Shown: piece by piece, positions 42,888 through 58,822 of the stretch
How positions within the stretch are numbered: position 1 is the first letter of the stretch
Layout: each line of letters begins with the position of its first letter
NCBI RefSeq assembly: GCF_010994755.1
Contig: NZ_WHSB02000004.1
Span: 124,001-188,000 of the forward strand
From: Shinella lacus
GTDB taxonomy: Bacteria; Pseudomonadota; Alphaproteobacteria; Rhizobiales; Rhizobiaceae
Reading direction: 5' to 3'
DNA length: 64,000 nt
Notes under the pieces: model-generated
What the model was told of the DNA's origin: nothing
The model's database searches: none
What the model saw: the letters and a program-made list of their open reading frames with translations, nothing else
Program-made: the position numbers and the translations under genes

Positions 42888-43604
42888 TCAGGCCGCCCGC
42901 TGGATCGTGCGGAAGAAGCCGCGCTCCGTCGATGTGCGCTTGGGCACCGGCATGAGGCGCAGCACTTCCTCGGCGAAGAGCCGCGCGTTTTCGCGCGCCT
43001 TGTCGAGGTTGCTCACCTTGGCCGGGTCCATCGAATAGAGCGTGCCGCCACAGTCGAAAATGTCGCGGAAGGCGGTGCGCTCGCCGATCGGCGTATCGAG
43101 CACGGTGACACCGCGGGCCGACAGCAGCCCCTTGATGGTGGTCATGGCGCGGGTCGTCACCATGGCGTTCATGCGGGTGAGCACGACCGAATGGTTGATG
43201 CGGATACCCGCCTTCTCGTCGAGCTGCTTCAGCAGTTCAAGGATCTGCGCCGCGCCGCGCGCATCCATCGCACAGCCCTGCACCGGGATCATCACATGGT
43301 CCGACAGGCCGATGGCGGTGGCGACGAGCGCATCGCGCGCACCGGCGAGGTCGATGATGAAATAGTCGGTCGTGTCGCGGTTCTCGCGGATATGGCACTG
43401 GATGGAGGCCATCGAGACTTCCGAGATCACGGCGATATTGCGCTGGCGGCCGGAAATCTCGTGCCAGTGGCTGATCCAGCGCTGCGGGTCGGCGTCGAGA
43501 ATGGTGACGCGATGGCCCTGGCTTGCAAGCTCCGTTGCAAGGATGAGGGCAGCGGTGGTCTTGCCCGCGCCGCCCTTGGCATTGGCAAATGTGATGACTG
43601 GCAT
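42888..43604 (-). CDS. VirC1-like ParA-family ATPase, copy 1
   Basis: A 238-residue P-loop ATPase of the MinD/ParA superfamily, closest in layout to VirC1-type proteins. It has the deviant Walker A FANAKGGAGKTTAAL at the N terminus, switch I DADPQRW, Walker B FIIDLAGARD and the conserved VPVQGCAMDARGAAQILELL. No ParB or centromere-like repeats are seen. ATG 43604 has GAGG before it; the frame opens at TTG four codons earlier. A related gene lies upstream on the same strand, separated by a terminator. Confidence 0.88.
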   Translation of the reverse strand: MPVITFANAKGGAGKTTAALILATELASQGHRVTILDADPQRWISHWHEISGRQRNIAVISEVSMASIQCHIRENRDTTDYFIIDLAGARDALVATAIGLSDHVMIPVQGCAMDARGAAQILELLKQLDEKAGIRINHSVVLTRMNAMVTTRAMTTIKGLLSARGVTVLDTPIGERTAFRDIFDCGGTLYSMDPAKVSNLDKARENARLFAEEVLRLMPVPKRTSTERGFFRTIQRAA

Positions 43605-43770
43605 GTCGTACCTCAAAAAATGCTGCGAGCTTGGTCATCGCTCTCGTCAGGCGACCCCGTGCAAATGGCGCCCGCTTCCTCAAATCTTTCAAAACATGGT
43701 TAACGAAGTGGAAATTTCCGCATCGCGAAGATTAATGAGATGACGGCGCGAATTTGCGCCCGGACAGGAA

Positions 43771-43835: not shown

Positions 43836-44573
43836 CTACCACGCCGCCGCCGGCTGTCCATCCGACGCGGCGGTGCGAATCTCCGCCCTCGCCCGCGGCT
43901 TCCAGCTTTCCTCCGCGCCGACGAGCCGAAGCACGTCGCTGGCAAAGGCCTGCATGTTGAGGACCGCCTTGTCGAGATTGCTGATCCGGCCGCCCTGCAT
44001 CGAATGAAGCGTGCCGCCGGTCTCGAACATGTCGCGAAACGCGCTGCGCTCGATGATCGGCGTCGAGACCACCGGAATTTTCGCCGCATCCAGCACCGAC
44101 TTCACATTGCGCAGCGCCCGGGTGGTGACGAGCGGATTGACGCGCGACAGCACGACGGCCCGGTTGATCGGCTTGTGTGCATTGGCGCTGACGAGATCGA
44201 TGAGTTCGAGCACATGGGCGGCCCCGCGGCTATCCATGGCGCAACCCTGCACGGGCACCAGCACCAGATCGGAAAGCCCGACGGCCAGCGCCACCAGCGC
44301 ATCGCGCGCGCCGGAAAGATCGATGATGACGTGATGGTGGCTGCTGCGCATGGCCCTGAGCGGGCTGGCGAGATTGGAGGCGGCGACGTTTTCCACCAGC
44401 GTCAGGCCTTCGCCGAGCCGTGCGGCCCGCGCCCAGGCGGCAGCCAGTTTCAGGTCGTCGCAATCGAGAAGGCAGATGCGTGCGCCACGCTCAACGAGTT
44501 CACTCGCCAGCAGCACCGCCGCTGTAGTCTTGCCCGAACCGCCCTTGGCGTTCGCTATGGATATGACCGCCAT
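43836..44573 (-). CDS. VirC1-like ParA-family ATPase, copy 2
   Basis: A 245-residue P-loop ATPase collinear with the neighbouring copy throughout: ISIANAKGGSGKTTAAVLLASE, LLDCDDLKLA, VIIDLSGARDALVALAVGLSD, VPVQGCAMDSRGAAHVLELI, then RNVKSVLDAAKIPVVSTPIIERSAFRDMFETGGTL. The two differ in switch I (DCDD here, DADP in copy 1), which may alter ATP handling. The frame opens GTG-ATG; the ATG at 44573 is used. The function and partner are unknown. Confidence 0.88.
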   Translation of the reverse strand: MAVISIANAKGGSGKTTAAVLLASELVERGARICLLDCDDLKLAAAWARAARLGEGLTLVENVAASNLASPLRAMRSSHHHVIIDLSGARDALVALAVGLSDLVLVPVQGCAMDSRGAAHVLELIDLVSANAHKPINRAVVLSRVNPLVTTRALRNVKSVLDAAKIPVVSTPIIERSAFRDMFETGGTLHSMQGGRISNLDKAVLNMQAFASDVLRLVGAEESWKPRARAEIRTAASDGQPAAAW

Positions 44574-44701
44574 CACTTTACCGCCGCATCAGACCGTCAC
44601 GCCGCGCCGGAAAAAGCGGCTCGCAAATCATGACAGTAGAATGACATTTTGATGACAACCGGTGCGCGATGCAATCCGTAATATTGAGGGAGTAGAAATC
44701 G

Positions 44702-44737: not shown

Positions 44738-45883
44738 TCAGATGCACTCGACGAAGAGACGCTTTGCGGCGTCCAGCGTCAGTTCCACCGGGTTGCCGCC
44801 GGCCGTCGGGTCGACGATCGCCATGGCCGACATCTCGTCGATCCGGTCCGTACCGACGCCGAGCGCCGACAGCTTGTCCGGCACGCCGAGCTCTTCGCGC
44901 AGGCGCAACACGTAGTCGAAGAAGCCGTCGAAACCGCCGGCAATGCCGAGATAGGCGGCGGCGCTGGCGATCTTCGCTTCGATCGCCGGACGGTTGAAGG
45001 TCAGCACCGGCGGCATCACGACGGCATTGGTCATGCCATGGTGCGTGTTGTAGATCGCGCCGACCGGGTGCGACAGCGAGTGGATCGCGCCGAGACCCTT
45101 CTGGAAGGCGACGGCGCCCATGGCGGCGGCCGACATCATGTTGGCGCGGGCCTCGATATCCGTGCCGTCCTTGTAGGCGCGCGGCAGGTATTCCTTGACG
45201 AGGCGCAGGCCTTCGAGCGCGATGCCCTGGCTCATCGGGTGGTAGAACGGCGAGCAATAGGCTTCCAGGCAATGGGCAAAGGCGTCCATGCCGGTGCCGG
45301 CCGTGATGACCTTTGGCATGCCGACCGTCAGTTCCGGGTCGCAGATCGTCACCGAAGGCAGGAACTTCGGGTGGAAGATCACCTTCTTGGTGTGCGTCTC
45401 GGAATTGGTGACGACCGAGGCGCGGCCGGCTTCCGAGCCGGTGCCGGCCGTCGTCGGCACGGCGACGATCGGCGCGATGCCGTCGGAATTGGCGCGCGTC
45501 CACCAGTCGCCGATATCCTCGAAATCCCAGACCGGGCGCGTCTGGCCCGACATGAAGGCGACCGCCTTGCCGAGGTCGAGGCCCGAGCCGCCGCCGAAGG
45601 CGACGACGCCGTCATGGCCGCCGTCCTTGAAGGCTTTTACGCCGGCATCGAGGTTCTTGTCGTTCGGGTTCGGGTCGACATCGGCGAACATCGCCCGGCC
45701 GAGGCCGGCGGCGTCCAGGATATCGAGTGCGTTCTGCGTGATCGGCATCGTGGACAGGCCGCGATCGGTGACGAGCAGCGGCTTCTTCATGCCGACCGCC
45801 TTGCAATGATCGGCCAGTTCCTTGATGCGCCCTGCCCCGAACTTGATGGCGGTCGGGTAGCTCCAGTTGGCGGTGATGGTCAT
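44738..45883 (-). CDS. Iron-containing alcohol dehydrogenase
   Basis: A 381-residue group III alcohol dehydrogenase. NAD is bound by VAFGGGSGLDLGKAVAF. The metal ligands are expected in GTGMDAFAHCLEAY and in SHPVGAIYNTHHGMTNAVVMP. Such enzymes oxidise primary alcohols to aldehydes with NAD. ATG 45883 lies 5 bp after the aldehyde dehydrogenase stop; TTG 45892 is an unlikely alternative. Downstream of the aldehyde dehydrogenase and GS-like genes, it probably oxidises the alcohol whose aldehyde goes to the dehydrogenase next door. Confidence 0.93.
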   Translation of the reverse strand: MTITANWSYPTAIKFGAGRIKELADHCKAVGMKKPLLVTDRGLSTMPITQNALDILDAAGLGRAMFADVDPNPNDKNLDAGVKAFKDGGHDGVVAFGGGSGLDLGKAVAFMSGQTRPVWDFEDIGDWWTRANSDGIAPIVAVPTTAGTGSEAGRASVVTNSETHTKKVIFHPKFLPSVTICDPELTVGMPKVITAGTGMDAFAHCLEAYCSPFYHPMSQGIALEGLRLVKEYLPRAYKDGTDIEARANMMSAAAMGAVAFQKGLGAIHSLSHPVGAIYNTHHGMTNAVVMPPVLTFNRPAIEAKIASAAAYLGIAGGFDGFFDYVLRLREELGVPDKLSALGVGTDRIDEMSAMAIVDPTAGGNPVELTLDAAKRLFVECI

Positions 45884-45888
45884 GCTCT

Positions 45889-47268
45889 TCAAGCTTTCCT
45901 GAAGTGATAGGATTTCGGTCGGGTGAGGTTGTGGAAACCGATGACGGAGAGCGAGCCGCCACGGCCCGTTTCCTTGACGCCGGTCCAGCAGAGCGCCGGA
46001 TCGAGATAGTCGGCGCGGTTCTGGAACACGGTGCCGGTCTCCAGATCGCGGGCGATGCGGGCGGCGCGGTCAGAGTCTTTCGTCCAGAGCGAAACGGTAA
46101 GGCCGTACTTGCAGTCGTTCATCAGGGCGAGCGCCTCTTCGTCGCTCTTCACCTTCATGATGCCAACGGCGGGGCCGAAGGTTTCTTCCGTCATGAACTC
46201 CATCGAATGATCGACATCGACGAGCACCTGCGGGGCGACATAGGCGCCGCCGTCATCGGCCGGGAACAGCTTGGGATCGACCAGCGCCTTGGCGCCCTTC
46301 GAAACCGCATCGGCGATCTGCGACCGCACGGTCGCGGCAAAGCGCTTGTGCGCCATCGGGCCGAGCGTCGTTTCGGGATCGAGCGGGTTGCCGAGCTTGT
46401 AGTTCGACACCCAGGCGACCGACTTTTCGACGAAGGCGTCGTAGAGCTTCTCGTTGACGTAGACGCGCTCGATGCCGCAGCAGCACTGGCCGGAATTGTA
46501 GGTGGCGCCGTCCATCAGCGTGTCGACGGCGGCGTCCAGGTCCGCGTCTTCCATGACGTAGCCCGGGTCCTTGCCGCCGAGTTCCAGACCGACCGGCGTG
46601 AACGTGCCGGCAGCGGCGCGCTCGATGGAGCGGCCGCCCTCGACGGAGCCGGTGAAGTTGATGAAATCGAACGCATTGCCGGCGATCAACGCCGAGGTCG
46701 TGTCATGGTCGAGGAAGACGTTCTGGAAGACGTCTTCCGGCACGCCGGCCTCGTTGAAGGCGCGCACCAGCCGCTCGCCGACGAGCAGCGTCTGCGCGGC
46801 ATGCTTGATGATGACCGTGTTGCCGGCCATCAGCGCCGGCGCGATCGTGTTGATCGCGGTCATGTAGGGATAGTTCCACGGCGCAATAACAAAGACGACG
46901 CCATGCGGCTCGCGCTCGATGCGGCGCTCGAAGCGCTCGCTGTTCTCGATGACGATCGGCGCCAGCGACGAGCCGGCGATCTCGGCGACGTAGTTGGAAC
47001 GCTCGTTGAAGCCCTTGAACTCGCCACCGTAGCGGACCGGGCGGCCCATCTGCCAGGCGATTTCCGGCACGATCTCGTCGGCCATCTCGTTGACGCGGGC
47101 CACACCCTTCAGCACGAGCTGGATACGGTCTTCCAGCGGGCGCTTCGCCCAGGATTTCTGCGCCTTCTTCGCGCGGGCGACGACGTCCTGCGCCGCTGCC
47201 AGCGGCAGCGACTCACGCTCGGCGTAAACCGAGCCATCCACGGGGGATATGCATTTGATCACAGTCAT
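45889..47268 (-). CDS. NAD(P)-dependent aldehyde dehydrogenase
   Basis: A 459-residue aldehyde dehydrogenase. It has PWNYPYMTAINTIAPALMAGN (cofactor site), NFTGSVEGGRSI, the general-base Glu in GLELGGKDPGYV and the catalytic Cys in YNSGQCCCGIERVYV (near residue 260), with ETFGPAVGI towards the end. The layout is like succinate-semialdehyde or 4-(gamma-glutamylamino)butanal type enzymes. It is sandwiched between the GS-like ligase and the Fe-ADH in one operon, which fits oxidation of a gamma-glutamyl aldehyde; the substrate is inferred. Confidence 0.93.
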   Translation of the reverse strand: MTVIKCISPVDGSVYAERESLPLAAAQDVVARAKKAQKSWAKRPLEDRIQLVLKGVARVNEMADEIVPEIAWQMGRPVRYGGEFKGFNERSNYVAEIAGSSLAPIVIENSERFERRIEREPHGVVFVIAPWNYPYMTAINTIAPALMAGNTVIIKHAAQTLLVGERLVRAFNEAGVPEDVFQNVFLDHDTTSALIAGNAFDFINFTGSVEGGRSIERAAAGTFTPVGLELGGKDPGYVMEDADLDAAVDTLMDGATYNSGQCCCGIERVYVNEKLYDAFVEKSVAWVSNYKLGNPLDPETTLGPMAHKRFAATVRSQIADAVSKGAKALVDPKLFPADDGGAYVAPQVLVDVDHSMEFMTEETFGPAVGIMKVKSDEEALALMNDCKYGLTVSLWTKDSDRAARIARDLETGTVFQNRADYLDPALCWTGVKETGRGGSLSVIGFHNLTRPKSYHFRKA

Positions 47269-47379
47269 GATCGACTTCCTGTTGGTTCTTTCGGAATTCT
47301 GGTTTTGACGGCGGTCGCCGCGCCTGAACGCCTGCGAGATGGTCTCCCGCAGGCGTCGAGGGGCAGACCCGCGCCGTTC

Positions 47380-48750
47380 TTACGCTCTCTCGAAGCCCCG
47401 CGCCACCTCCCAGTCGGTGATGCGGCGATCGTACTCTTCCTGCTCCCATTCGGCCGCGCGGACATAATGTTCGATGACGTCGTCGCCGAAAGCGTCGCGC
47501 AGCATCTTGGAATCCTTCAGCGCCGCGGTGGCGCCGCGCAGGGTCTTCGGGATTTCGCGGGCATCCTTGCCGCCATAGGCATCGCCGACGAAGGGCGCCT
47601 CAAGCTCCAGCTTCTCCTCGATGCCGGCAATGCCGGCGGCGAGCAGCGCGGCCATAGCGAGATACGGATTGAGGTCCGAACCGCCGACGCGGCATTCGAT
47701 GCGGATGCCCTTGGTGCCTTCGCCGCACAGGCGATAGCCGGCCGTGCGGTTGTCCTTGCTCCAGATCGCCTTGGTCGGCGCGAAAGTGCCGGCGACGAAG
47801 CGCTTGTAGGAATTGATGTAGGGCGCGAGGAAGTAGGTGATTTCGCTGGCATGCGCCAAGAGGCCGGCCACATAGTTCCGCATCAGCTCCGACATGCCGT
47901 ACTTGGCTTCCTTGTCGAAGAACTTCGCTTCCTTGCCGTCGACGCTCCACAGCGACTGGTGGATATGCGACGAGGAGCCTGCGGAATTGTAGTTCCACTT
48001 TGCAAGGAAGGTGACGGACTTGCCGCGCTGCCAGGCGATTTCCTTGGTGGCGTTCTTGATGATCGAATGCCGGTCGGCCATCGTGACGGCCTCGGCATAC
48101 CGCACGTTGATCTCTTCCTGGCCGGGCGAAGCCTCGCCCTTGGAATTCTCCACCGGAATGCCGGCGCCCTGCAGGCCATTGCGCAGCGCCCGCATCACGT
48201 CCTCTTCCTTGGTGGTCTGGAAGATGTGGTAGTCCTCGTTATAGCCCGAGGCGGGGCGCAGATCGCGGTAGCCGCTCTCGCGTGCGTCGTCGAAGGTCTG
48301 GTCGAACAGGAAGAATTCGAGCTCGCTCGCCATGAACGGCTTCAGGCCCATGGCTTCGAGGCGCTTGACCTGCTTCTTTAGGATGGCGCGCGGCGAATGC
48401 GGCACTTCCTCATGGGTGTGGTGGTCAAGCACGTCGCAGAGAACCAGCGCCGTGCCTTCGAGCCAGGGCAGCTTGCGCAGCGTCGAAAGGTCCGGCTTCA
48501 TCGTATAGTCGCCGTAGCCCGCTTCCCAGCTCGTCGACTTGTAGCCGGCAACGGTCTCCATCTCGATGTCGGTGGCGAGCAGGTAGTTGCAGCTATGCGT
48601 CTCCTCGAAGGCGCTTTCCACGAAATAGACCGCGTGAAAACGCTTGCCCATGAGACGGCCCTGCATGTCGACGAGGCAGGCGAGAACGGTGTCGATGCGG
48701 CCGTCGGCAACATCCTTCTTCAGATCATTAAAGCTATAGGTCATGGTCAT
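47380..48750 (-). CDS. Glutamine-synthetase-like gamma-glutamyl-amine ligase (PuuA-like)
   Basis: A 456-residue protein of the glutamine synthetase superfamily. It has the N-terminal beta-grasp segment LACLVDMQGRLMGKRF, then Mg/ATP motifs SELEFFLFD, GQEEINVRYAEAVTMAD, NSAGSSSHIHQSLW and RIECRVGGSDLNPYLAMAALLAAG. The sequence pattern is that of amine ligases such as gamma-glutamylputrescine synthetase rather than housekeeping GlnA. It should join glutamate to an amine using ATP. ATG 48750 is followed two codons later by another ATG. Confidence 0.92.
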   Translation of the reverse strand: MTMTYSFNDLKKDVADGRIDTVLACLVDMQGRLMGKRFHAVYFVESAFEETHSCNYLLATDIEMETVAGYKSTSWEAGYGDYTMKPDLSTLRKLPWLEGTALVLCDVLDHHTHEEVPHSPRAILKKQVKRLEAMGLKPFMASELEFFLFDQTFDDARESGYRDLRPASGYNEDYHIFQTTKEEDVMRALRNGLQGAGIPVENSKGEASPGQEEINVRYAEAVTMADRHSIIKNATKEIAWQRGKSVTFLAKWNYNSAGSSSHIHQSLWSVDGKEAKFFDKEAKYGMSELMRNYVAGLLAHASEITYFLAPYINSYKRFVAGTFAPTKAIWSKDNRTAGYRLCGEGTKGIRIECRVGGSDLNPYLAMAALLAAGIAGIEEKLELEAPFVGDAYGGKDAREIPKTLRGATAALKDSKMLRDAFGDDVIEHYVRAAEWEQEEYDRRITDWEVARGFERA

Positions 48751-48782
48751 GGGGCGGTCCTGGGGGTTATGGCGTCGTGCCG

Positions 48783-48807
48783 GACCGGGCCGTCAAGGCC
48801 CGGTCCG
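48783..48807 (-). other. Intercistronic stem-loop between dctP and the GS-like gene
   Basis: A perfect 10 bp stem, GGACCGGGCC (48783-48792) with GGCCCGGTCC (48798-48807) and a 5-base loop, lies 16 bp after the dctP stop, without a T-tract. Such structures commonly protect the upstream binding-protein message from 3' decay or partly end transcription. Confidence 0.75.
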
Positions 48808-48822
48808 AGGAGTTTGGCGGGA

Positions 48823-49878
48823 TCAGCCGTTGACGTAGGGCGGTCCGGCCTTGTTGATGACGGCGTTGTAATCCTCGAAGATCTTGACGACCTTGGCGGC
48901 CACTTCGCCCTGCTCCGCGATCTCCTTCCAGAATACCTTTGCGGCATCCTCGACCGGCTTCCATTCGGCAGCCGGAATGCTGGTGAGTTTCAGCTTCGTA
49001 CCCTCGGCGCGCAGCTTCGCCTCACCACCCCAGTACCACTGGTCGCGGTAGTTGTTGCCGGCCTCGATCGCCGTCATGACAAGCTTCTTCAGATGGTCCG
49101 GCAGTTCCGCCCACTTCTTCTCGTTGACGAAGAACGAGCCGATCCAGGCGCCCGAAATGTTGTTGGTCAGGAAGTGCTCGGTGACGTCGGCCCAGCCGAC
49201 CGTGTAGTCTTCGGTGATGCCCGACCAGGCCATGCCGTCGAGTTCGCCCGTCTGAACGGCCACCTGCGCATCCTCGTAGGGGATCGTCACCGGCACGACG
49301 CCGAACTGGCTCAGGAACCGGCCGGCCGTTGGGAAGGTGTAGAGACGCAGGCCCTGGAGGTCGGCAAGGGTGTTGATGGGCTTCTTGGTGTTAAAGTGGC
49401 ACGGATCCTGGCCCGAGGACGACAGCCAGACAACGCCGCCGACTTTCTCGTAGGCCGTCCTCCAGATATCGGCGAGGCCGTATTGCTTGAACAGCACCGG
49501 CACGTCGAGGATCTGCTTGGTGGCGAGCGGGAAATAGCCGCCGAAGGTCGCGACCTCCGCAGGCGAGGCCATTGAATCGTCGTCCGAATGAACGGCGTCG
49601 ATCGTGCCGGCCTGGAGCGCGCGGAACAGTTCGCCGGTCGGCACGATCTGGTCGGCGTAGAAGAGTTCGATTTCGAGCTCGCCCTTGGCGGTAGCATTGA
49701 TCGCGTCGATGATCGGCTTGGTGACATGCTCGCCAAGTGCAGCACCAGCATAGGTCTGGAAGCGCCACTTGATGGCCGTCTGCGCCTTGACGACGGCAGG
49801 CGCCGCAAGCGTTACGGCACCGGCAGCACCGATCGTCGCGGCACCGGCCCTGGTAAGAAACTGCCTTCTGTTGGTCAT
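48823..49878 (-). CDS. dctP: TRAP transporter solute-binding protein (DctP-like)
   Basis: A 351-residue periplasmic binding protein with a twin-arginine-type signal (NRRQFLTRAGAATIGAAGAV, then AAPAVVKAQ). The DctP fold is indicated by HVTKPIIDAINATAKGELEIELFYADQIVPTGEL, the carboxylate-binding region with LQGLRLYTFPTAGRFLSQFG, and YEDAQVAVQTGELDGMAW. TRAP receptors bind organic acids, including amino acid derivatives. It is upstream of the GS-like gene and downstream of dctM. Confidence 0.93.
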   Translation of the reverse strand: MTNRRQFLTRAGAATIGAAGAVTLAAPAVVKAQTAIKWRFQTYAGAALGEHVTKPIIDAINATAKGELEIELFYADQIVPTGELFRALQAGTIDAVHSDDDSMASPAEVATFGGYFPLATKQILDVPVLFKQYGLADIWRTAYEKVGGVVWLSSSGQDPCHFNTKKPINTLADLQGLRLYTFPTAGRFLSQFGVVPVTIPYEDAQVAVQTGELDGMAWSGITEDYTVGWADVTEHFLTNNISGAWIGSFFVNEKKWAELPDHLKKLVMTAIEAGNNYRDQWYWGGEAKLRAEGTKLKLTSIPAAEWKPVEDAAKVFWKEIAEQGEVAAKVVKIFEDYNAVINKAGPPYVNG

Positions 49879-50012
49879 ATCTATATCCCTCTGGTTATCG
49901 TTTGGTTTTCTGCCGGGAACGGCCGTTTGCCCCGGTCTGTCAATGGTCTTTTCTTCTATCCGGCCTCATTGCTCCGTGGAAACCGGCGGCCGTGGCCGCC
50001 GGGCATAATTGG

Positions 50013-51335
50013 TCATTTTGCGTAGAAATTCTCCGGCAGCCACGTCGCGATCTCCGGGAAGCAGCCGATGATGATCAGGCTTGCGACCATGATCCCGACG
50101 AAAGGCCAGATCGATTTGTAGATGTCGGACATGCCAATGCCGGGCGGCGCCATGGCACGCATCATGAACAGGTTGTAGCCGAAGGGCGGCGTGATGTAGG
50201 CGATCTGGCAGGTAATCGTGTAGAGCACGCCGTACCAGACGAGATCGAAGCCGAGTTTCTGGACGAGCGGAATGTAGAGCGGCGCCACGATGACGAGCAT
50301 CGCCGTGTCGTCGAGGAACATCCCCATGATCAGGAACGACAGTTGCATCAGCACCAGCACCTGCCACGGCTCAAGGCCGAGGTCGCCGAGGAAGAAACGC
50401 TCGATCGACTTGACCGCGCCGAGGCCGTCGAAAACGGCACCGAAGCAGAGCGAGGCGATCAGAATCCACATGAACATGCAGGTGATGCCAAGCGTCTTCT
50501 GCAGCACGTCGTTCCACAGCCGGCCGGTGAGCCGGCCGCGCCACCAGGCGACCAGCGCCGAGGAGATCGCGCCGATGGCGGAGCTTTCCACTAGGCTGGT
50601 AATACCGCTCAGGAACAGCGACATCATCAGCGCGAAGATGCCGAGCGGCAGAATACCCGCTGTAAGCAGCTTCAGCTTTTCGCCCAGGGGCACGTTGCGT
50701 TCTTCCATCGGCAGCGCCGGTCCAAGCAACGGATTGATCCGGCAGCGCACATAGACGTAGATCGCCATCAGCGTCGCCATCAGAAGGCCCGGAAGCAGGC
50801 CAGCGAGCCAGAGTTGGCCGACCGGCACGCGGGCGATCATGCCGTAAAGCACGAGCACGATGCTCGGCGGGATGAGGATGCCGAGCGTCGAGCCGCCCTG
50901 CACGACGCCCGTCGTCATTACCTTGTCGTACCCGCGGCGCAACAGCTCCGGCAGTGCGATCGTAGCACCGATCGCCATGCCGGCAACCGAAAGCCCGTTC
51001 ATGGCGGATATGATCACCATCAGGCCGATCGTGCCGAGCGCCAGTCCGCCGTTGATCGGCCCCATCCAGACGTGGAATGCCTTGTAGAGGTCTTCGGCGA
51101 TGCCCGATTCCGACAGCATGTAGCCCATGAACACGAACATCGGCACCGTCAGCATCGGATACCATTTGACGAGCTTCATGGCCGATGCGAAGCCCATTTC
51201 CGAACCGCCCTCGCCCCACAGCAGATAGGCGGCGACGACGCCGACGAAACCGATGACGGCAAAGACCCGCTGCCCCGTGAGCAGCAGCACCATCATGGCC
51301 GCAAACATCGTGATTGCGATGAATTCATAACTCAT
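50013..51335 (-). CDS. dctM: TRAP transporter large permease (DctM-like)
   Basis: A 440-residue membrane protein with about 12 segments, the ion-coupled channel of a TRAP system. Family motifs include MIISAMNGLSVAGMAIGATIALPELLRRGYD, GGSTLGILIPPSIVLVLYG, MFLDDTAMLVIVAPLYIPL and ITPPFGYNLFMM. The start overlaps the dctQ stop by 4 bp. The 134 bp gap to dctP carries no strong terminator. Confidence 0.94.
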   Translation of the reverse strand: MSYEFIAITMFAAMMVLLLTGQRVFAVIGFVGVVAAYLLWGEGGSEMGFASAMKLVKWYPMLTVPMFVFMGYMLSESGIAEDLYKAFHVWMGPINGGLALGTIGLMVIISAMNGLSVAGMAIGATIALPELLRRGYDKVMTTGVVQGGSTLGILIPPSIVLVLYGMIARVPVGQLWLAGLLPGLLMATLMAIYVYVRCRINPLLGPALPMEERNVPLGEKLKLLTAGILPLGIFALMMSLFLSGITSLVESSAIGAISSALVAWWRGRLTGRLWNDVLQKTLGITCMFMWILIASLCFGAVFDGLGAVKSIERFFLGDLGLEPWQVLVLMQLSFLIMGMFLDDTAMLVIVAPLYIPLVQKLGFDLVWYGVLYTITCQIAYITPPFGYNLFMMRAMAPPGIGMSDIYKSIWPFVGIMVASLIIIGCFPEIATWLPENFYAK

Positions 51336-51841
51336 GCGATGGGCCTTCCCCGCAATTCAGCGATATCCTTGAACAGCGAGGAAAATGCCTGAGCAAGCAT
51401 CATCACGACGCCGAAGGTCATGACGATCTTGATCGGCGCCATATAAGGCGCCCATGCGCTAAAACTCTTTTCCTTAAACTGGATGGCGTAGGTGGTGCTG
51501 GCGATACCGCCGTAAAGCATGAAACCGAGGAAGATGATCAGCGCGATGACGGTGATCGTGTCGAACGCGGCCCGCTTGCGCACCGACCAGTCGCTGTAGA
51601 AAAGGTCCATGCGCACATGGTCGCTGGTCTGCATGGCAAAGGCACCGCCGAGCATATAGTAGGCGGCCATGGTGAACTGCGCGGATTCCAGCGTCCAGTT
51701 CGCCGGCAGGTGGAATGCCTTCGAGACGGATGAATAGAGTAGGATCGCGAACATCGCAAAAATCAAATACATGGCAAGAATGCCGACGCGCCGGTTGAAC
51801 GTGTCGACGACGCGCACATAGCGCTTGATGAAATCAGGCAT
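51332..51841 (-). CDS. dctQ: TRAP transporter small permease (DctQ-like)
   Basis: A 169-residue protein with four membrane segments, the small subunit that pairs with DctM. Family features are IKRYVRVVDTFNRRVG at the N terminus, FAMQTSDHVRMDLFYS (the conserved H-R-D region) and SAWAPYMAPIKIVMTFGVVMMLAQAF. ATG 51841 has AGGGG before it; the frame is open 10 codons upstream. Confidence 0.93.
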   Translation of the reverse strand: MPDFIKRYVRVVDTFNRRVGILAMYLIFAMFAILLYSSVSKAFHLPANWTLESAQFTMAAYYMLGGAFAMQTSDHVRMDLFYSDWSVRKRAAFDTITVIALIIFLGFMLYGGIASTTYAIQFKEKSFSAWAPYMAPIKIVMTFGVVMMLAQAFSSLFKDIAELRGRPIA

Positions 51842-51976
51842 GACCCCTGCCTTTGCTGGCAGTGACGGCATTTTCAGCCCGGCCGGCCCTCCGATACGAC
51901 AACATAAGCATCCGCTTGGCCTCTCCAGTTCGTGTTCATTTCCGTCTCCACAGACGCTTGTTCCCCGGGTCGGTTC

Positions 51977-52738
51977 TTATTGTACTTTGGGCAGGCTCTC
52001 GAGGAGCAGTCCCGTCAGATAGTCGGCCACGACCCCTTGGCCGGCTTCGTCTTTAATGAGGTCGTTGCGGACCTCTATCATCACATTGGGCAGGCCGTTC
52101 GCGAGGCCATGCTCTTTCAAAGTATGCGTCACGCCGTCTTCAGGCCCGTAGGGCTCGTTGCGGCGGGTGTCGTAAAGGCTTTTTTCGCCGGCCGCGGCCA
52201 GCATGGCATCGGCAAGCCGCGTATCCGCATCGTGCAGGATGCCGATCTCGACGGCACGCGGCTTTCCGAAATAGACCGGCGTGAAACTGTGCATCGTCAC
52301 GATGACCGGCGGCCGCCCCTCGGCGATCCGGTTTTCGACGAGGCGGCCGAGCCCCTTGCGGAACGGCAGGTAGAGAGCCTCGGTGCGGGCATCGCGCGCC
52401 GCCTGGTCGAGGCCGGCATTGCCCGGCACCTCGAAGACCTCGCTCTTTTCCGGCATGGCGGCCGGCGATTCGGGCGGGCGGTTGCAATCATAGACGAGGC
52501 GCGAAAAACGCTGGAAAACCAGCGTCGCATCAAGGCTTCTGGCCATCAGGCGCGATACGGCGAGCGCGCCGGGATCCCAGGCGATATGGCTTGCGAGCGC
52601 TTCTTCCGTAAGACCCAGCGTACCGAGCGCCTTCGGAAGCAAGCGGGAGGCATGCTCGCAGACGAGGATCACCCGGCCACGCGCAGCACTGTTTTCAAGG
52701 GCGACGGGGTCGCCCTCCTCTCCAGTCAGAATTCCCAT
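51977..52738 (-). CDS. N-formylglutamate amidohydrolase-family protein
   Basis: A 253-residue protein of the FGase family, zinc hydrolases acting on N-acylated glutamate. Likely metal/active-site motifs are ILVCEHASRLLPK, HIAWDPGALAVSRLMARSLDA, DCNRPPESPAAMPE, VIVTMHSFTPVYFGKPR and VMIEVRNDLI. No histidine-utilisation genes are nearby. It is the first gene of the minus-strand catabolic unit and is divergent from the RpiR regulator, so removal of glutamate from a gamma-glutamyl intermediate is an attractive but unproven role. Confidence 0.88.
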   Translation of the reverse strand: MGILTGEEGDPVALENSAARGRVILVCEHASRLLPKALGTLGLTEEALASHIAWDPGALAVSRLMARSLDATLVFQRFSRLVYDCNRPPESPAAMPEKSEVFEVPGNAGLDQAARDARTEALYLPFRKGLGRLVENRIAEGRPPVIVTMHSFTPVYFGKPRAVEIGILHDADTRLADAMLAAAGEKSLYDTRRNEPYGPEDGVTHTLKEHGLANGLPNVMIEVRNDLIKDEAGQGVVADYLTGLLLESLPKVQ

Positions 52739-52910: not shown

Positions 52911-53810
52911 TTGACGCTTAACCAAGCATCCATGACGGTGTCGGATGTGATCCATGCTCATTTCGCCACGCTGACCCGTGCCGAAAAACAGCTGGCCGCA
53001 TCGCTGCTCGACAATTATCCCGTCTCCGGCCTCGGTTCCATCACGACGGTCGCGGAAAACGCCGGCGTGTCGACCCCGACGGTCGCCCGCATGGTGCAGA
53101 AGCTTGGGTTCCGCGGCTTTCCGGATTTCCAGGCCCGCCTGCACCATGAGCTGGAGGCGACGCTTTCCAGCCCGATCAGCAAACACGACCGCTGGGCGGC
53201 CAACGCGCCGGGCACGCATATCCTCAACCGTTTTGCCGACGCGATCATGAACAACCTGCGCCAGACCCTGTCGCAGGTCGAGACCGCCGAGTTCAACGGG
53301 GCGAGCGCCCTCCTCGCCGACCGCCAGCGCAGCATCTACATCATCGGCGGGCGCATCACCAAGGCGCTTGCCGACTACCTCTTCACGCATTTGCAGGTCA
53401 TCCGCCCGCACGTCACCCAGATCGCGTCCAATCCGAGTTCATGGCCGCACTACGTGCTGAACATGAAGGCGGGCGACGTGCTCGTCATCTTCGACATCCG
53501 CCGCTACGAGCAGGAAATGGAGACGCTCGGTCGGATCGCCCGCGAGCGCGGCGTCGAGATCGTGCTCTTCACCGACCAGTGGGCCTCGCCCGTCGCCAAG
53601 GTCGCCGCGAAGGTTTTTCGCGTCCATATCGAGGCGCCGTCGGCCTGGGATTCGTCCGTCGTGACGCTTTTTATCGTCGAGGCGCTCATCGAAGCGGTGC
53701 AGAGTTCGGGCTGGGAAGAGACCAGCGATCGCATGAAGACGCTGGAGGGCCTCTTCGAGGCCAGCCGGCTTTTTCGAAAACCCCGGCCGGAGGTCTCTGG
53801 CAAATCCTAA
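52911..53810 (+). CDS. MurR/RpiR-family transcriptional regulator
   Basis: A 299-residue regulator with an N-terminal RpiR helix-turn-helix (LTRAEKQLAASLLDNYP, GSITTVAENAGVSTPTVARMVQKLGFRGFPDFQ) and a C-terminal SIS sugar-phosphate-type sensing domain (SIYIIGGRITKALADYLFTHL, VLVIFDIRRYEQEMETL). It would respond to a phosphorylated or acidic ligand. TTG 52911 is chosen because AGGGG lies 6 bases upstream; ATG 52932 has no SD. It sits between the TRAP/GS cluster and the ABC importer and could control either. Confidence 0.88.
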   Translation: MTLNQASMTVSDVIHAHFATLTRAEKQLAASLLDNYPVSGLGSITTVAENAGVSTPTVARMVQKLGFRGFPDFQARLHHELEATLSSPISKHDRWAANAPGTHILNRFADAIMNNLRQTLSQVETAEFNGASALLADRQRSIYIIGGRITKALADYLFTHLQVIRPHVTQIASNPSSWPHYVLNMKAGDVLVIFDIRRYEQEMETLGRIARERGVEIVLFTDQWASPVAKVAAKVFRVHIEAPSAWDSSVVTLFIVEALIEAVQSSGWEETSDRMKTLEGLFEASRLFRKPRPEVSGKS

Positions 53811-53911: not shown

Positions 53912-55018
53912 GTGATGTCACATACGAGACGCCTGCTTTCGCTCTCCACCGCAATGGTGGTTGCGTCCTCCTCGTTTGCCTTTGCCGAGCCGAGCGCCGA
54001 GCTCGTCGCTGCCGCCAAGGCCGAAGGCAAGCTGACGACCATCGCGCTTCCGCATTCCTGGTGCGGCTACGGCGACATTATTGCCGGCTTCAAGGCCAAG
54101 TACCCGGAAATCACGGTCAACGAACTGAACCCGGACGCAGGCTCGGGCGACGAAATCGAAGCCATCAAGGCCAACAAGGGCAACACCGGCGACCAGGCTC
54201 CTGACGTCATCGACGTCGGCCTGTCCTTCGGCCCGTCGTCCAAGGCCGAAGGCCTGATCCAGCCCTACAAGGTCGAAACCTGGGATTCGATCCCGGACAG
54301 CGCCAAGGATGCTGACGGCCACTGGTACGGCGACTATTACGGCGTTCTCTCGTTCGTCGTGAACACCGACATCGTCAAGGAAGTTCCGAAGGACTGGAAG
54401 GACCTGACCAAGGCCGACTACGCCAACGCCGTAGCACTCGCCGGCGACCCGCGCACGTCGAACCAGGCCGTTCAGGCCGCCTACGCTGCCGGGCTCGCCA
54501 CCGGTGAAAAGGACGCCGCGAAGATCGGTGAAGCCGGTCTGGCGCTGTTTGCCGAAGTCAACAAGGCCGGCAACTTCGTTCCGGTCATCGGCAAGTCGGC
54601 TTCGCTCGCCCAGGGCTCGACCCCGATCGTCATCGCATGGGACTATAACGGCCTGTCCTGGCGCGACACGCTCGGCGGCAACCCGCCGCTCGAAGTCGTC
54701 GTTCCGGCAACCGGCGTCGTCGCCGGCGTCTACGTCCAGGCGATCTCGGCCTTCGCACCGCACCCGAACGCTGCCAAGCTCTGGATGGAGTACCTCTATT
54801 CCGACGAAGGCCAGCTCGGCTACCTGAAGGGCTATTGCCACCCCATCCGCTTCAACGATCTCGCCAAGAACGGCAAGATCCCGCAGGAAATGCTCGACAA
54901 GCTGCCGCCGGCAGAAGCCTATGAAAAGGCTGTCTTCCCGACGCTCGAAGAGCAGGAAGCCGGCAAGGGCGTGATCACCACGAAGTGGGACAGCGTCGTC
55001 GGCGCCAACGTCCAGTAA
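53912..55018 (+). CDS. ABC transporter substrate-binding protein, unknown substrate
   Basis: A 368-residue periplasmic binding protein (signal peptide STAMVVASSSFAFAEP) of the iron/polyamine/thiamine type (SBP_bac fold). Notable segments are IALPHSWCGYGDIIAGFKAKYP, DAGSGDEIEAIKANKG, WYGDYYGVLSFVVNTDIV, ALAGDPRTSNQAVQAAYAAG and SAFAPHPNAAKLWMEYLYSDEGQ. Possible ligands include polyamines, Fe(III) or 2-aminoethylphosphonate; none is proven. AAGGAG precedes a GTG-ATG pair (53912/53915). It is the first gene of a four-gene importer. Confidence 0.87.
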   Translation: MMSHTRRLLSLSTAMVVASSSFAFAEPSAELVAAAKAEGKLTTIALPHSWCGYGDIIAGFKAKYPEITVNELNPDAGSGDEIEAIKANKGNTGDQAPDVIDVGLSFGPSSKAEGLIQPYKVETWDSIPDSAKDADGHWYGDYYGVLSFVVNTDIVKEVPKDWKDLTKADYANAVALAGDPRTSNQAVQAAYAAGLATGEKDAAKIGEAGLALFAEVNKAGNFVPVIGKSASLAQGSTPIVIAWDYNGLSWRDTLGGNPPLEVVVPATGVVAGVYVQAISAFAPHPNAAKLWMEYLYSDEGQLGYLKGYCHPIRFNDLAKNGKIPQEMLDKLPPAEAYEKAVFPTLEEQEAGKGVITTKWDSVVGANVQ

Positions 55019-55032
55019 CATCGTGCAGATAC

Positions 55033-55060
55033 CCCTTCCCGCCGTCCGCGGCGGGAAGGG
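55033..55060 (+). other. Intercistronic stem-loop after the binding-protein gene
   Basis: A perfect 11 bp stem, CCCTTCCCGCC (55033-55043) with GGCGGGAAGGG (55050-55060), begins 14 bp after the stop and has no T-tract. It probably stabilises or partly terminates the message so that more binding protein than permease is made. Confidence 0.75.
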
Positions 55061-55169
55061 CCTGGCATTCCCGGCTGGTGTGCGTCACGATTGCGCGCCA
55101 GCCGTTTCCGTCTGAAATTCTTTTCTCTAAAATTCTTTCCTCGCCTCGCACCCGGGACCCGCCGCCCCT

Positions 55170-56039
55170 ATGAGCACCGCAACCCTGATAGACCGTCGCA
55201 AGGTCATCGATTGGCTCGGTATCGCGCCCTTCATGATCTTTGCGCTGATGTTCCTCATCCTGCCGACGCTCTATCTGGTGGCCGGCGCCTTCTTCAACCC
55301 GCAGGGCGAATTCACCTTCCAGAACATCAAAGACCTGACGCATCCGACGATCCTCAGCGCCTACTGGATCTCGATCAAGGTCTCCGTCGCCTCCTCGCTC
55401 GGCGGCGCGCTCATCGGTTTCTTCCTCGCCTGGGCTATCGTGCTCGGCGGGCTGCCGAGCTGGATCCGCTCGGGCATGCTCACCTTCTCCGGCGTCGCCT
55501 CCAACTTCGCCGGCGTGCCGCTCGCCTTCGCCTTCATCGCCACGCTCGGCCGCACCGGCCTCGTGACGGTGTTCCTCAACGAGTGGTTCGGTTTCAACCT
55601 CTATTCGACCGGCTTCAACCTCCTCTCCTTCTTCGGCCTCACCATCACCTACATGTTCTTCCAGATTCCGCTGATGGTGCTGATCTTGACGCCGGCGCTG
55701 GACGGCCTGAAGAAGGAATGGCGCGAAGCTTCGGAAATCCTCGGTGCCTCGAACTGGCAATACTGGCGCCTGGTGGCCTTGCCGATCCTCTGGCCGAGCC
55801 TGATGGGCACGACGCTGCTGCTGTTCGCCAATGCCTTCGGCGCCATCGCCACGGCCTATGCGCTGACCGGCTCCTCGCTCAACATCGTGCCAATCCTGCT
55901 CTATGCGCAGATCCGCGGCGACGTGCTGCACAACCCCAATCTCGGCTATGCGCTGGCGCTCGGCATGATCGTCATCACCGGCGCCTCCAATATCCTCTAC
56001 ATCTGGCTGCGCTCGCGCGCTGAACGGTGGCAGAAATGA
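55170..56039 (+). CDS. ABC transporter permease (first)
   Basis: A 289-residue inner-membrane permease with six segments. The EAA loop is seen in EWREASEILGASNWQYWRLVALPILWPSL (near residues 185-213), the contact site for the ATPase. It follows the binding-protein gene by 151 bp and overlaps the second permease by 4 bp (ATGA). Confidence 0.91.
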   Translation: MSTATLIDRRKVIDWLGIAPFMIFALMFLILPTLYLVAGAFFNPQGEFTFQNIKDLTHPTILSAYWISIKVSVASSLGGALIGFFLAWAIVLGGLPSWIRSGMLTFSGVASNFAGVPLAFAFIATLGRTGLVTVFLNEWFGFNLYSTGFNLLSFFGLTITYMFFQIPLMVLILTPALDGLKKEWREASEILGASNWQYWRLVALPILWPSLMGTTLLLFANAFGAIATAYALTGSSLNIVPILLYAQIRGDVLHNPNLGYALALGMIVITGASNILYIWLRSRAERWQK

Positions 56040-56824
56040 AGTCGTCCCGCCTCCTCGCCTGGATCGCCATCGCCATCGGCGTCATCTATTTCATCGTGCC
56101 GCTCATCGGCACCTTCGAATTCTCGTTGCGCATGCGGCGCGGCGAATACACGTTCGACGCCTACCAGTCGGTCTTCTCCGACCTGCAGTTCCGCGCCACC
56201 TTCGGCTATTCCATGCTGATGGCGCTCTTGACGATCGTCTTCGGCATGCTGCTCGTGGTGCCGACCGCCTACTGGGTGCGCCTGCGCCTGCCGCAGATCC
56301 GCCCGGTCATCGAGTTCATCACGCTCTTACCGCTCGTCATCCCGGCCATCGTCATCGTCTTCGGCTACCTGCGCCTCTACAATTCGTCGTCCTGGCTGCC
56401 GCTCACCAACACGACCAGCGGCACCAACGTGCTTTTGATGTTCTCCTACATGACGCTGTCGCTGCCCTACATGTACCGGGCGGTCGACACGGCGATGCGC
56501 GCCATCGACGTCGCGACCTTGACCGAGGCCGCCGAAAGCCTCGGCGCCAAGTGGCCGACGATCATGTTCCGCTGCATCTTCCCGAATGTCATGAGCGGCG
56601 TGCTCTCCGGCGCCTTCATCACCTTTGCCATCGTCATGGGCGAGTTCACCATGGCCGCCCTGCTGAACCGGCCGGCTTTCGGTCCCTATCTCCAGCTCGT
56701 CGGCGCCAACAAGGCCTATGAGCCCTCCGCGCTCGCCATCATCGCCTTCGCGATCACCTGGCTGAGCATGGGCTTCCTGCAACTCGTCTCCCGCTTCCAG
56801 AAAACCGCGCCGCTCAAGGCCTGA
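56036..56824 (+). CDS. ABC transporter permease (second)
   Basis: A 262-residue inner-membrane permease with six segments. The EAA loop is in LTEAAESLGAKWPTIMFRCIFPNVMSG (near residues 160-188). The ATG at 56036 overlaps the previous stop and is preferred to the upstream in-frame 56027. It pairs with the first permease to form the channel. Confidence 0.91.
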   Translation: MKSSRLLAWIAIAIGVIYFIVPLIGTFEFSLRMRRGEYTFDAYQSVFSDLQFRATFGYSMLMALLTIVFGMLLVVPTAYWVRLRLPQIRPVIEFITLLPLVIPAIVIVFGYLRLYNSSSWLPLTNTTSGTNVLLMFSYMTLSLPYMYRAVDTAMRAIDVATLTEAAESLGAKWPTIMFRCIFPNVMSGVLSGAFITFAIVMGEFTMAALLNRPAFGPYLQLVGANKAYEPSALAIIAFAITWLSMGFLQLVSRFQKTAPLKA

Positions 56825-56832
56825 GGATCTCC

Positions 56833-57894
56833 ATGTCGTTTCTCAATCTCAGCAACATCCAGAAGGCCTTCGGCCCGGTGCAGGTCGTTAAGGATTTCAA
56901 CATGGCCATCGAGAAGGGCGAGTTCGTCTCCTTTCTCGGCCCGTCGGGCTGCGGCAAGACGACGGTTCTGCGCATGATCGCCGGCTTCGAAACGCCGACC
57001 GGCGGCTCGATCACCGTCAACGGCAAGAGCCAGGCGAACCTGAAGCCCAACCAACGCAACATCGGCATGGTCTTCCAGGCCTACGCCCTCTTCCCGAACA
57101 TGAACGTCGCCGAAAACGTCGCCTTCGGCCTCAAGATCGCCGGCAAGCCGAAAGCCGAGATCGACGCCCGCGTCAAGGAAATGCTCGGCCTCATCAAGCT
57201 CGACCACCTTGCCGAACGCTACCCCTACCAGATGTCCGGCGGCCAGCAGCAGCGCGTGGCGCTCGCCCGCGCGCTGGCACCGAAGCCGCAGGTGCTGCTG
57301 CTCGACGAGCCGCTCTCGGCCCTCGACGCCAAGATCCGCGTGTCGCTGCGCGAAGAAATCCGCATGATCCAGCAGCAACTCGGCATCACCACGGTCTTCG
57401 TCACGCATGACCAGGAAGAGGCGCTGTCGATCTCCGACCGCATCGTCGTCATGAACGCCGGCAAGGCCGACCAGATCGGCAAGCCGGCCGAGATCTACAA
57501 CCGCCCCGCCACTCGCTTCGTCGCCAACTTCGTCGGCACGCTGAACCTGATCGAGGCGAAGGTCGTCGACCCGGTGGCCAACCGCATCACCATCGGCGAC
57601 CAGGGCGTGACGCTGCGCGAACCGCTCGGCAATGTGAAGGTCGGCGACACGGTCTCCCTGGCGCTGCGCCCGGAAGCGGGCTCGACGGCGCCGGATGCCA
57701 AGGGCGACACGGCGCTGACCGGCGAGGTCATCTCCTCGAACTTCCTCGGCTCGGTCATCCGCACCCGCATGAAGGTCGGCCCCGCCGTCATCTCCTTCGA
57801 CATGTTCAACAGCCCCGGCCTCGTGCCGCCGGCCGTCGGCGAGACCGCCACGCTGCGATTCACCGCCGGCGATCTTCTGATCATCCGCGACTGA
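56833..57894 (+). CDS. ABC transporter ATP-binding protein
   Basis: A 353-residue ATPase with Walker A GPSGCGKTTVLRMIAG (near residue 40), Q-loop MVFQAYALFPNMNV, signature MSGGQQQRVALARAL, Walker B VLLLDEPLSALD and H-loop VTHDQEEAL. A C-terminal TOBE-type regulatory domain is present (residues about 270-350), typical of polyamine/iron importers. It closes the operon, and a terminator-like hairpin follows. Confidence 0.93.
   Translation: MSFLNLSNIQKAFGPVQVVKDFNMAIEKGEFVSFLGPSGCGKTTVLRMIAGFETPTGGSITVNGKSQANLKPNQRNIGMVFQAYALFPNMNVAENVAFGLKIAGKPKAEIDARVKEMLGLIKLDHLAERYPYQMSGGQQQRVALARALAPKPQVLLLDEPLSALDAKIRVSLREEIRMIQQQLGITTVFVTHDQEEALSISDRIVVMNAGKADQIGKPAEIYNRPATRFVANFVGTLNLIEAKVVDPVANRITIGDQGVTLREPLGNVKVGDTVSLALRPEAGSTAPDAKGDTALTGEVISSNFLGSVIRTRMKVGPAVISFDMFNSPGLVPPAVGETATLRFTAGDLLIIRD

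Positions 57895-58315: not shown

Positions 58316-58822
<507 letters not shown>

Follow-up and report, generated by a model that had tools for sequence, protein, structure and literature searches.

Among described systems, the closest counterpart of the locus considered here is the eto operon for ethanolamine of Phaeobacter sp. MED193, a member of the Rhodobacteraceae. This operon (MED193_10021-10056) comprises eight genes in the order RpiR, GGAH, EtoV, EtoW, EtoX, ETAGA, GAADDH, and GETADH; its EtoX binds ethanolamine with a Kd of 7.9 μM but none of four named analogues, and phosphoethanolamine raises five of the operon products, namely GGAH, EtoX, and three other enzymes (PMC10132767; this and the other papers are cited from the passages covered). 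A pathway of Chromohalobacter salexigens employs enzymes of the families PF00120, PF00465, PF00171, and PF05013 (PMC9397018), and in Streptomyces coelicolor the GlnA4 cluster SCO1610-SCO1615 encodes a glutamine synthetase (GS)-like ligase, a dehydrogenase, an aldehyde dehydrogenase (ALDH), and a hydrolase of the N-formylglutamate amidohydrolase (FGase) family, of which GlnA4 glutamylates ethanolamine in vitro and the hydrolase is predicted to act on gamma-glutamylglycine (PMC6529630). Here we describe seven genes at positions 44738-52738 of a 64,000-nucleotide stretch of the Shinella lacus genome (contig NZ_WHSB02000004.1, positions 124,001 to 188,000; hereafter the window), which very probably constitute an eto operon that uses ethanolamine as a source of nitrogen and carbon.

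Judged from its sequence, the locus is an eto operon for ethanolamine and hence an already known system. Starting from a divergent RpiR gene, the genes for GGAH, EtoV, EtoW, EtoX, the ligase, ALDH, and an Fe-dependent alcohol dehydrogenase (Fe-ADH) follow one another, and the eight genes, their order, and the RpiR gene at the head were identical to those of the MED193 operon, as were the type of importer, a tripartite ATP-independent periplasmic (TRAP) transporter, and the proposed reactions (PMC10132767). An ATP-binding cassette (ABC) importer stands beside the operon in the window, whereas none is named there in the covered passages of that paper. The enzyme families PF00120, PF00465, PF00171, and PF05013 were those given for C. 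salexigens in Table 2 of PMC9397018, and C. salexigens also supplied the best solved relative of the window EtoX, Csal_0678 (4uab), and one of the best for the ligase (5dm3). The enzymes of the Streptomyces GlnA4 cluster likewise matched those of the window, although the covered passages of PMC6529630 leave a TRAP importer unmentioned and place an amino-acid-type permease in the cluster of some Streptomyces. The order of the window recurred on plasmid 1 of Paracoccus denitrificans PD1222 (PDEN_RS22625-22660: RpiR, FGase, TRAP small permease, large permease, and binding protein, GS family, ALDH, and Fe-ADH), but the flanks there, with IS66 and group II intron genes and acs, were unlike those of the window.

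The initial annotation, prepared from the nucleotide sequence without database searches, had described seven same-strand genes of these families, and the coordinates, strands, and Pfam matches agreed with it. It had also regarded the set with its TRAP importer as undescribed, the FGase-type hydrolase as lacking a precedent, and the Puu and Ipu pathways as the nearest known logic. These three views are superseded by the literature, as the set has been published in MED193 (PMC10132767), the same hydrolase family is listed for C. salexigens (PMC9397018) and predicted in Streptomyces (PMC6529630), and Puu and Ipu are not the nearest precedents.

In the proposed route, EtoX would bind periplasmic ethanolamine and EtoV/EtoW would carry it inward, whereupon the GS-like ligase would join it, with ATP, to the gamma-carboxyl of glutamate to give gamma-glutamylethanolamide. 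The Fe-ADH would then convert the alcohol of this compound to the aldehyde, the ALDH would convert the aldehyde to gamma-glutamylglycine, and the FGase-family hydrolase would split the latter into glycine and glutamate, while the RpiR regulator probably senses ethanolamine or a pathway intermediate. Ethanolamine binding (EtoX, Csal_0678), induction by phosphoethanolamine, and ligation (the Streptomyces ligase) have been shown in relatives by others in the papers cited here. The gamma-glutamylation of a small amino alcohol, fed by the TRAP importer and closed by the FGase-family hydrolase, as originally proposed for the window, is supported.

To assess conservation, we searched the genome collection for the EtoX binding protein, kept the 80 best of its 411 relatives for comparison, and took as testable the 65 loci with at least 4.5 kb before and at least 6 kb after the binding protein gene. 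All seven genes were present in the same order and on the same strand in 57 of these 65 loci, and a divergent RpiR gene adjoined the hydrolase gene in 62; the seven-gene grouping is therefore not due to chance, and the co-occurrence that the initial annotation had proposed to check was found. Within the best 80, the named loci with the most similar EtoX belonged to Rhizobium, Mycoplana, and Shinella, and the Shinella records were the closest across the eto genes and RpiR. We further surveyed 101 genomes of the family of the window (Rhizobiaceae), with a separate E-value limit for each protein, and found matches to the ligase in 70 genomes, EtoX in 50, FGase in 69, ADH in 71, and the ABC binding protein in 57. 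The 70 ligase genomes contained 73 ligase loci; within 6 kb of the ligase, ADH was found at 69 of them, FGase at 63, both at 61, and EtoX at 42.

The GS fold of the ligase raises the question of whether a spare GS for ammonia assimilation merely lies beside unrelated oxidoreductases. In the alignment, the residues of the fold for metal and for ATP are conserved in the protein, as are most of those for glutamate; the poorly aligned D50 and Y179 columns were not interpreted. However, it reached 261 bits against the GlnA family (TIGR00653), below the cut-off of 429, and Phe323 is aligned to Glu327 of GlnA. Phe occupied the same column in the aligned C. salexigens and P. denitrificans sequences and in all 74 ligase matches obtained from the 80 EtoX-anchored loci, and it is also found at this position in S. 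coelicolor GlnA4 (PMC6529630). By its score and this substitution, the ligase is not predicted to be a plain GS, in agreement with the initial annotation, which had called it a GS-like amine ligase. The recurrent neighbourhood of ADH (69/73) and FGase (63/73) in the family likewise argues against a spare GS, as do eight further GS-like matches in the 7.04-Mb genome of the window, of which seven were aligned and one (L008) keeps Glu at the E327 column. We consequently give almost no credence to ammonia assimilation as the function of the locus.

The Puu pathway for putrescine and the Ipu pathway for isopropylamine resemble the predicted eto route in that glutamylation is followed by oxidation and release of glutamate. 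If the window encoded such a route, acting on putrescine, isopropylamine, or some other simple amine, the elements in common would be the initial glutamylation by a GS-like ligase and the presence of an ALDH. The ligase, however, scored 207 bits against the gamma-glutamylputrescine synthetase family (NF045547), for which the cut-off is 650. Furthermore, no oxidase of the PuuB kind occurred among the seven genes, and the hydrolase falls in PF05013, unlike PuuD of Escherichia coli (PF07722/PF00117); the absence of both Puu-type enzymes had been noted in the initial annotation. Given also that the nearest solved relative of the importer binding protein holds ethanolamine, a Puu- or Ipu-type pathway appears exceedingly improbable.

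The closest solved relatives of the proteins pointed instead to the eto pathway. For the ligase, 11zs (687 bits) and 5dm3 (679 bits), the latter being Csal_0679 of C. salexigens, were followed by a third structure at only 189 bits. For EtoX, 4uab scored best at 471 bits with the runner-up at 64 bits; this structure is Csal_0678 with ethanolamine bound on the platform residue Glu220 (PMC12410723), and the protein has no equivalent of Arg-147 of carboxylate-binding TRAP proteins (PMC4646407). With an assumed numbering offset of 3 (chain index 217), Glu223 of the window EtoX (motif SGITEDY) is likely the counterpart of Glu220, and on this mapping EtoX belongs to the Csal_0678 subfamily with an acidic platform residue. 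Glu223 was kept in all 80 loci. The genome encodes six further TRAP binding proteins that were compared; five could be aligned at this column and carried D, D, L, K, and V, a weak comparison at about 25% identity. An EtoX relative with 58% identity on plasmid pRACO34Ac of Rhizobium sp. ACO-34A (L092) also kept the Glu; the annotated genes in its vicinity include a glycerol kinase and an FAD oxidoreductase, on account of which EtoX relatives below 60% identity may serve a substrate other than ethanolamine.

For the hydrolase, the sole solved relative at E ≤ 0.001 was 2odf (Atu2144), with 150 of 247 aligned columns identical. The ADH stayed below the cut-off of all 16 NCBIfam families that it matched (349 of 500 bits for the highest), and the ALDH below that of each of the 25 families listed of its 45 matches.

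The ethanolamine ammonia-lyase route (EutBC) provided comparative evidence on the substrate. In a Methylobacteriaceae metagenome-assembled genome (L020:8450-13341), EtoVWX-like TRAP genes, whose products were 64, 81, and 83% identical to those of the window (83% for the binding protein), lie directly upstream of EutB (726 bits) and EutC (294 bits), and the importer there seems to serve the ammonia-lyase. Similarly, an Eat-like permease 87% identical to one found in the importer position of eto loci adjoins EutC-EutB in L159. Across the 101 family genomes, EutB occurred in 4 of the 70 with the ligase and in 15 of the 31 others (Fisher p = 1.8e-6, kinship ignored), a near-exclusion consistent with the two routes being alternatives for the same substrate. 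The genome of the window gave no match to EutB (PF06751) in a search that did not cover EutC, and the locus was accordingly not placed among Eut systems.

A pathway of the same logic could also have a different short amino alcohol as its preferred substrate, for example L-alaninol or 3-aminopropanol, giving gamma-glutamyl-alanine or -beta-alanine. Alaninol had been named beside ethanolamine in the initial annotation, and 4xf5, a second structure entry for Csal_0678 among the EtoX matches, was reportedly solved with an amino-propanol. Against this stand the TRAP importer and its replacing permease adjoining EutBC in L020 and L159, respectively, and the binding of, or response to, ethanolamine or its phosphate in the MED193 operon (PMC10132767). 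We thus consider this alternative improbable and ethanolamine the best-supported substrate.

Several points weigh against the assignment of the locus to ethanolamine utilization. We infer all activities in S. lacus, the hydrolase reaction, and the ligand of the regulator, and an assay of the FGase-family hydrolase on gamma-glutamylglycine was not found in the literature passages covered. The evidence in C. salexigens is graded differently by its sources: the eto genes were "demonstrated to function" there and in A. tumefaciens C58 according to PMC10132767, citing Vetting et al. (2015), whereas the C. salexigens pathway was "predicted in an in silico approach" according to PMC6529630. The conserved pattern was broken in 8 of the 65 testable loci, namely L020, with EutBC instead; L021, with TRAP permeases and FGase unmatched; L044 and L051, with ligase, ALDH, and ADH unmatched; L058, L070, and L082, with ALDH unmatched; and L077, with FGase unmatched. 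In addition, the Glu220-Glu223 correspondence depends on the inferred numbering offset, and the Fisher tests ignore phylogeny, with small genomes included among the 16 that have neither route.

The layout of the locus is summarized in Table 1. All seven reading frames lie on the minus strand and their proteins exceeded the Pfam gathering scores (PF00465, PF00171, PF00120, PF03480, PF06808, PF04290, and PF05013). The ADH and ALDH genes overlap by 4 bp, as do those of the large and small TRAP permeases; the gaps are 111 bp between ALDH and ligase, 72 bp between ligase and binding protein, 134 bp between binding protein and large permease, the widest in the set, and 105 bp between small permease and FGase. 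The regulator gene begins 172 bp beyond the FGase gene, followed by the ABC importer genes on the strand of the regulator.

Table 1. Features of the eto locus and its flank in the window, with the basis of each assignment.
Feature	Position	Strand	Basis
Predicted gamma-glutamylethanolamide dehydrogenase (Fe-dependent alcohol dehydrogenase; GETADH in MED193)	44738..45892	-	PF00465/PF25137; position as MED193_10056
Aldehyde dehydrogenase, predicted to convert gamma-glutamyl aldehyde to gamma-glutamylglycine	45889..47268	-	PF00171, 402 bits; position as MED193_10051
GS-like ethanolamine gamma-glutamylase (predicted)	47380..48750	-	PF00120; solved relatives 11zs, 5dm3; Phe323
EtoX, TRAP periplasmic binding protein	48823..49878	-	PF03480; solved relative 4uab; Glu223
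EtoW, TRAP large permease	50013..51335	-	PF06808, 234 bits
EtoV, TRAP small permease	51332..51871	-	PF04290, 63 bits
FGase-family enzyme, predicted gamma-glutamylglycine amidohydrolase (GGAH)	51977..52738	-	PF05013, 147 bits; position as MED193_10026
RpiR/MurR-family regulator (HTH_6 + SIS), divergent	52911..53810	+	PF01418, PF01380
Four-gene ABC importer (binding protein, two permeases, ATPase)	53912..57894	+	SBP_bac_6, BPD_transp_1 x2, ABC_tran

The importers associated with the eto enzymes varied within the family. We tentatively propose, with more doubt than confidence, that the Rhizobiaceae eto system is modular, its importer slot being filled by TRAP genes, an Eat-like permease, or another APC permease, and that the SBP_bac_6-type ABC transporter at 53912-57894 is a further importer for ethanolamine or an ester of it. 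In 30 family loci fetched for being TRAP-less or ABC-linked, and hence not a random sample, a reading frame of 499-558 amino acids lay between the hydrolase and ligase genes in 16. Three of six such permeases, scanned as APC permeases, best matched TIGR00908, "ethanolamine permease" (339-367 bits, below the cut-off of 381.75), and the remaining three matched the general TIGR00907, far below its cut-off. A permease-like reading frame accompanied the ligase at 17 of the 24 TRAP-less fetched loci, in the slot at 16 and upstream of the ligase in L133; in L134, no importer was recognised beside the eto enzymes.

Of the 73 family ligase loci, 40 had the ABC genes no more than 9 kb away, 17 had both importers, and 8 had neither; counted over the 61 ABC loci of the family, 40 had the ligase at this distance. 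Two arrangements were seen, together at 19 of the 80 named loci: at 12, the ABC genes stand just past RpiR and are oriented like it, and at 7 they lie downstream of ADH. At six TRAP-less loci (L112, L117, L121, L131, L135, and L136) the ABC transporter was the only recognised importer beside the eto enzymes, which strengthens its reading as an importer of the pathway; L117 additionally has outlying reading frames, perhaps of another ABC set. Three of the six genomes (G002, G033, and G008) had no EtoX match at 1e-60 and the others (G038, G054, and G070) had a relative of 55-61% identity elsewhere, permeases elsewhere being outside this search. The ABC genes may thus be a local replacement of the TRAP importer in these six loci, and in the window a second importer of the eto operon is possible. 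A regular replacement of TRAP by ABC was rejected as a general rule, given the 17 of 73 loci with both importers and the 17 of 24 TRAP-less loci with a permease-like reading frame.

Other comparisons of the ABC transporter gave a divided picture. The best solved relative of its binding protein was 5t1p (208 bits). Among the 31 family genomes without the ligase, EutB was found in 11 of 13 that bear the ABC genes and in 4 of 18 that do not (p = 0.001, kinship ignored). Outside the family, neither the eto ligase nor EutB lay near any of 51 ABC loci (the ligase being searched at the loci, not genome-wide), and EutB, present in 18 of 51 ABC-bearing genomes and in 61 of the 233 that lack the ABC genes, was not significantly enriched (p = 0.23); a role as a general ethanolamine importer was hence not borne out there. 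The loci compared gave no further gene conserved beside the ABC transporter, and no title among the literature matches listed, whose coverage of subscription papers is poor, named an ethanolamine ABC importer. The exchangeable slot and the link of the ABC genes to eto in this family are possibly new, if small, findings. Separately, in six of seven Shinella-named loci the ABC ATPase was 89-92% identical, with the binding protein and permeases only 69-75% identical, as if the block of the latter had been swapped.

Some further features were observed around the operon. Past its ADH end lie tandem ParA/VirC1-like ATPase genes (42888-43616 and 43836-44576), and many Rhizobiaceae loci of the comparison had a relative of the first next to the operon. 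Downstream of the ABC genes is a stand-alone lumazine synthase gene (58319-58822; NF009084, 233 bits against a cut-off of 160). In two other genomes, a small helix-turn-helix-like and then a PIN-like reading frame, identified by eye, lay between the ALDH and ligase genes (L123:5024-5879 and L127:5615-6431) and have the appearance of a toxin-antitoxin pair that was inserted there.

Taken together, S. lacus very likely represents an added member of the known ethanolamine pathway, and a first-principles reading of the raw window recovered this published pathway. For the family, the importers common to eto and EutBC neighbourhoods and the near-exclusion of the eto ligase and EutB offer comparative support for ethanolamine as the substrate.

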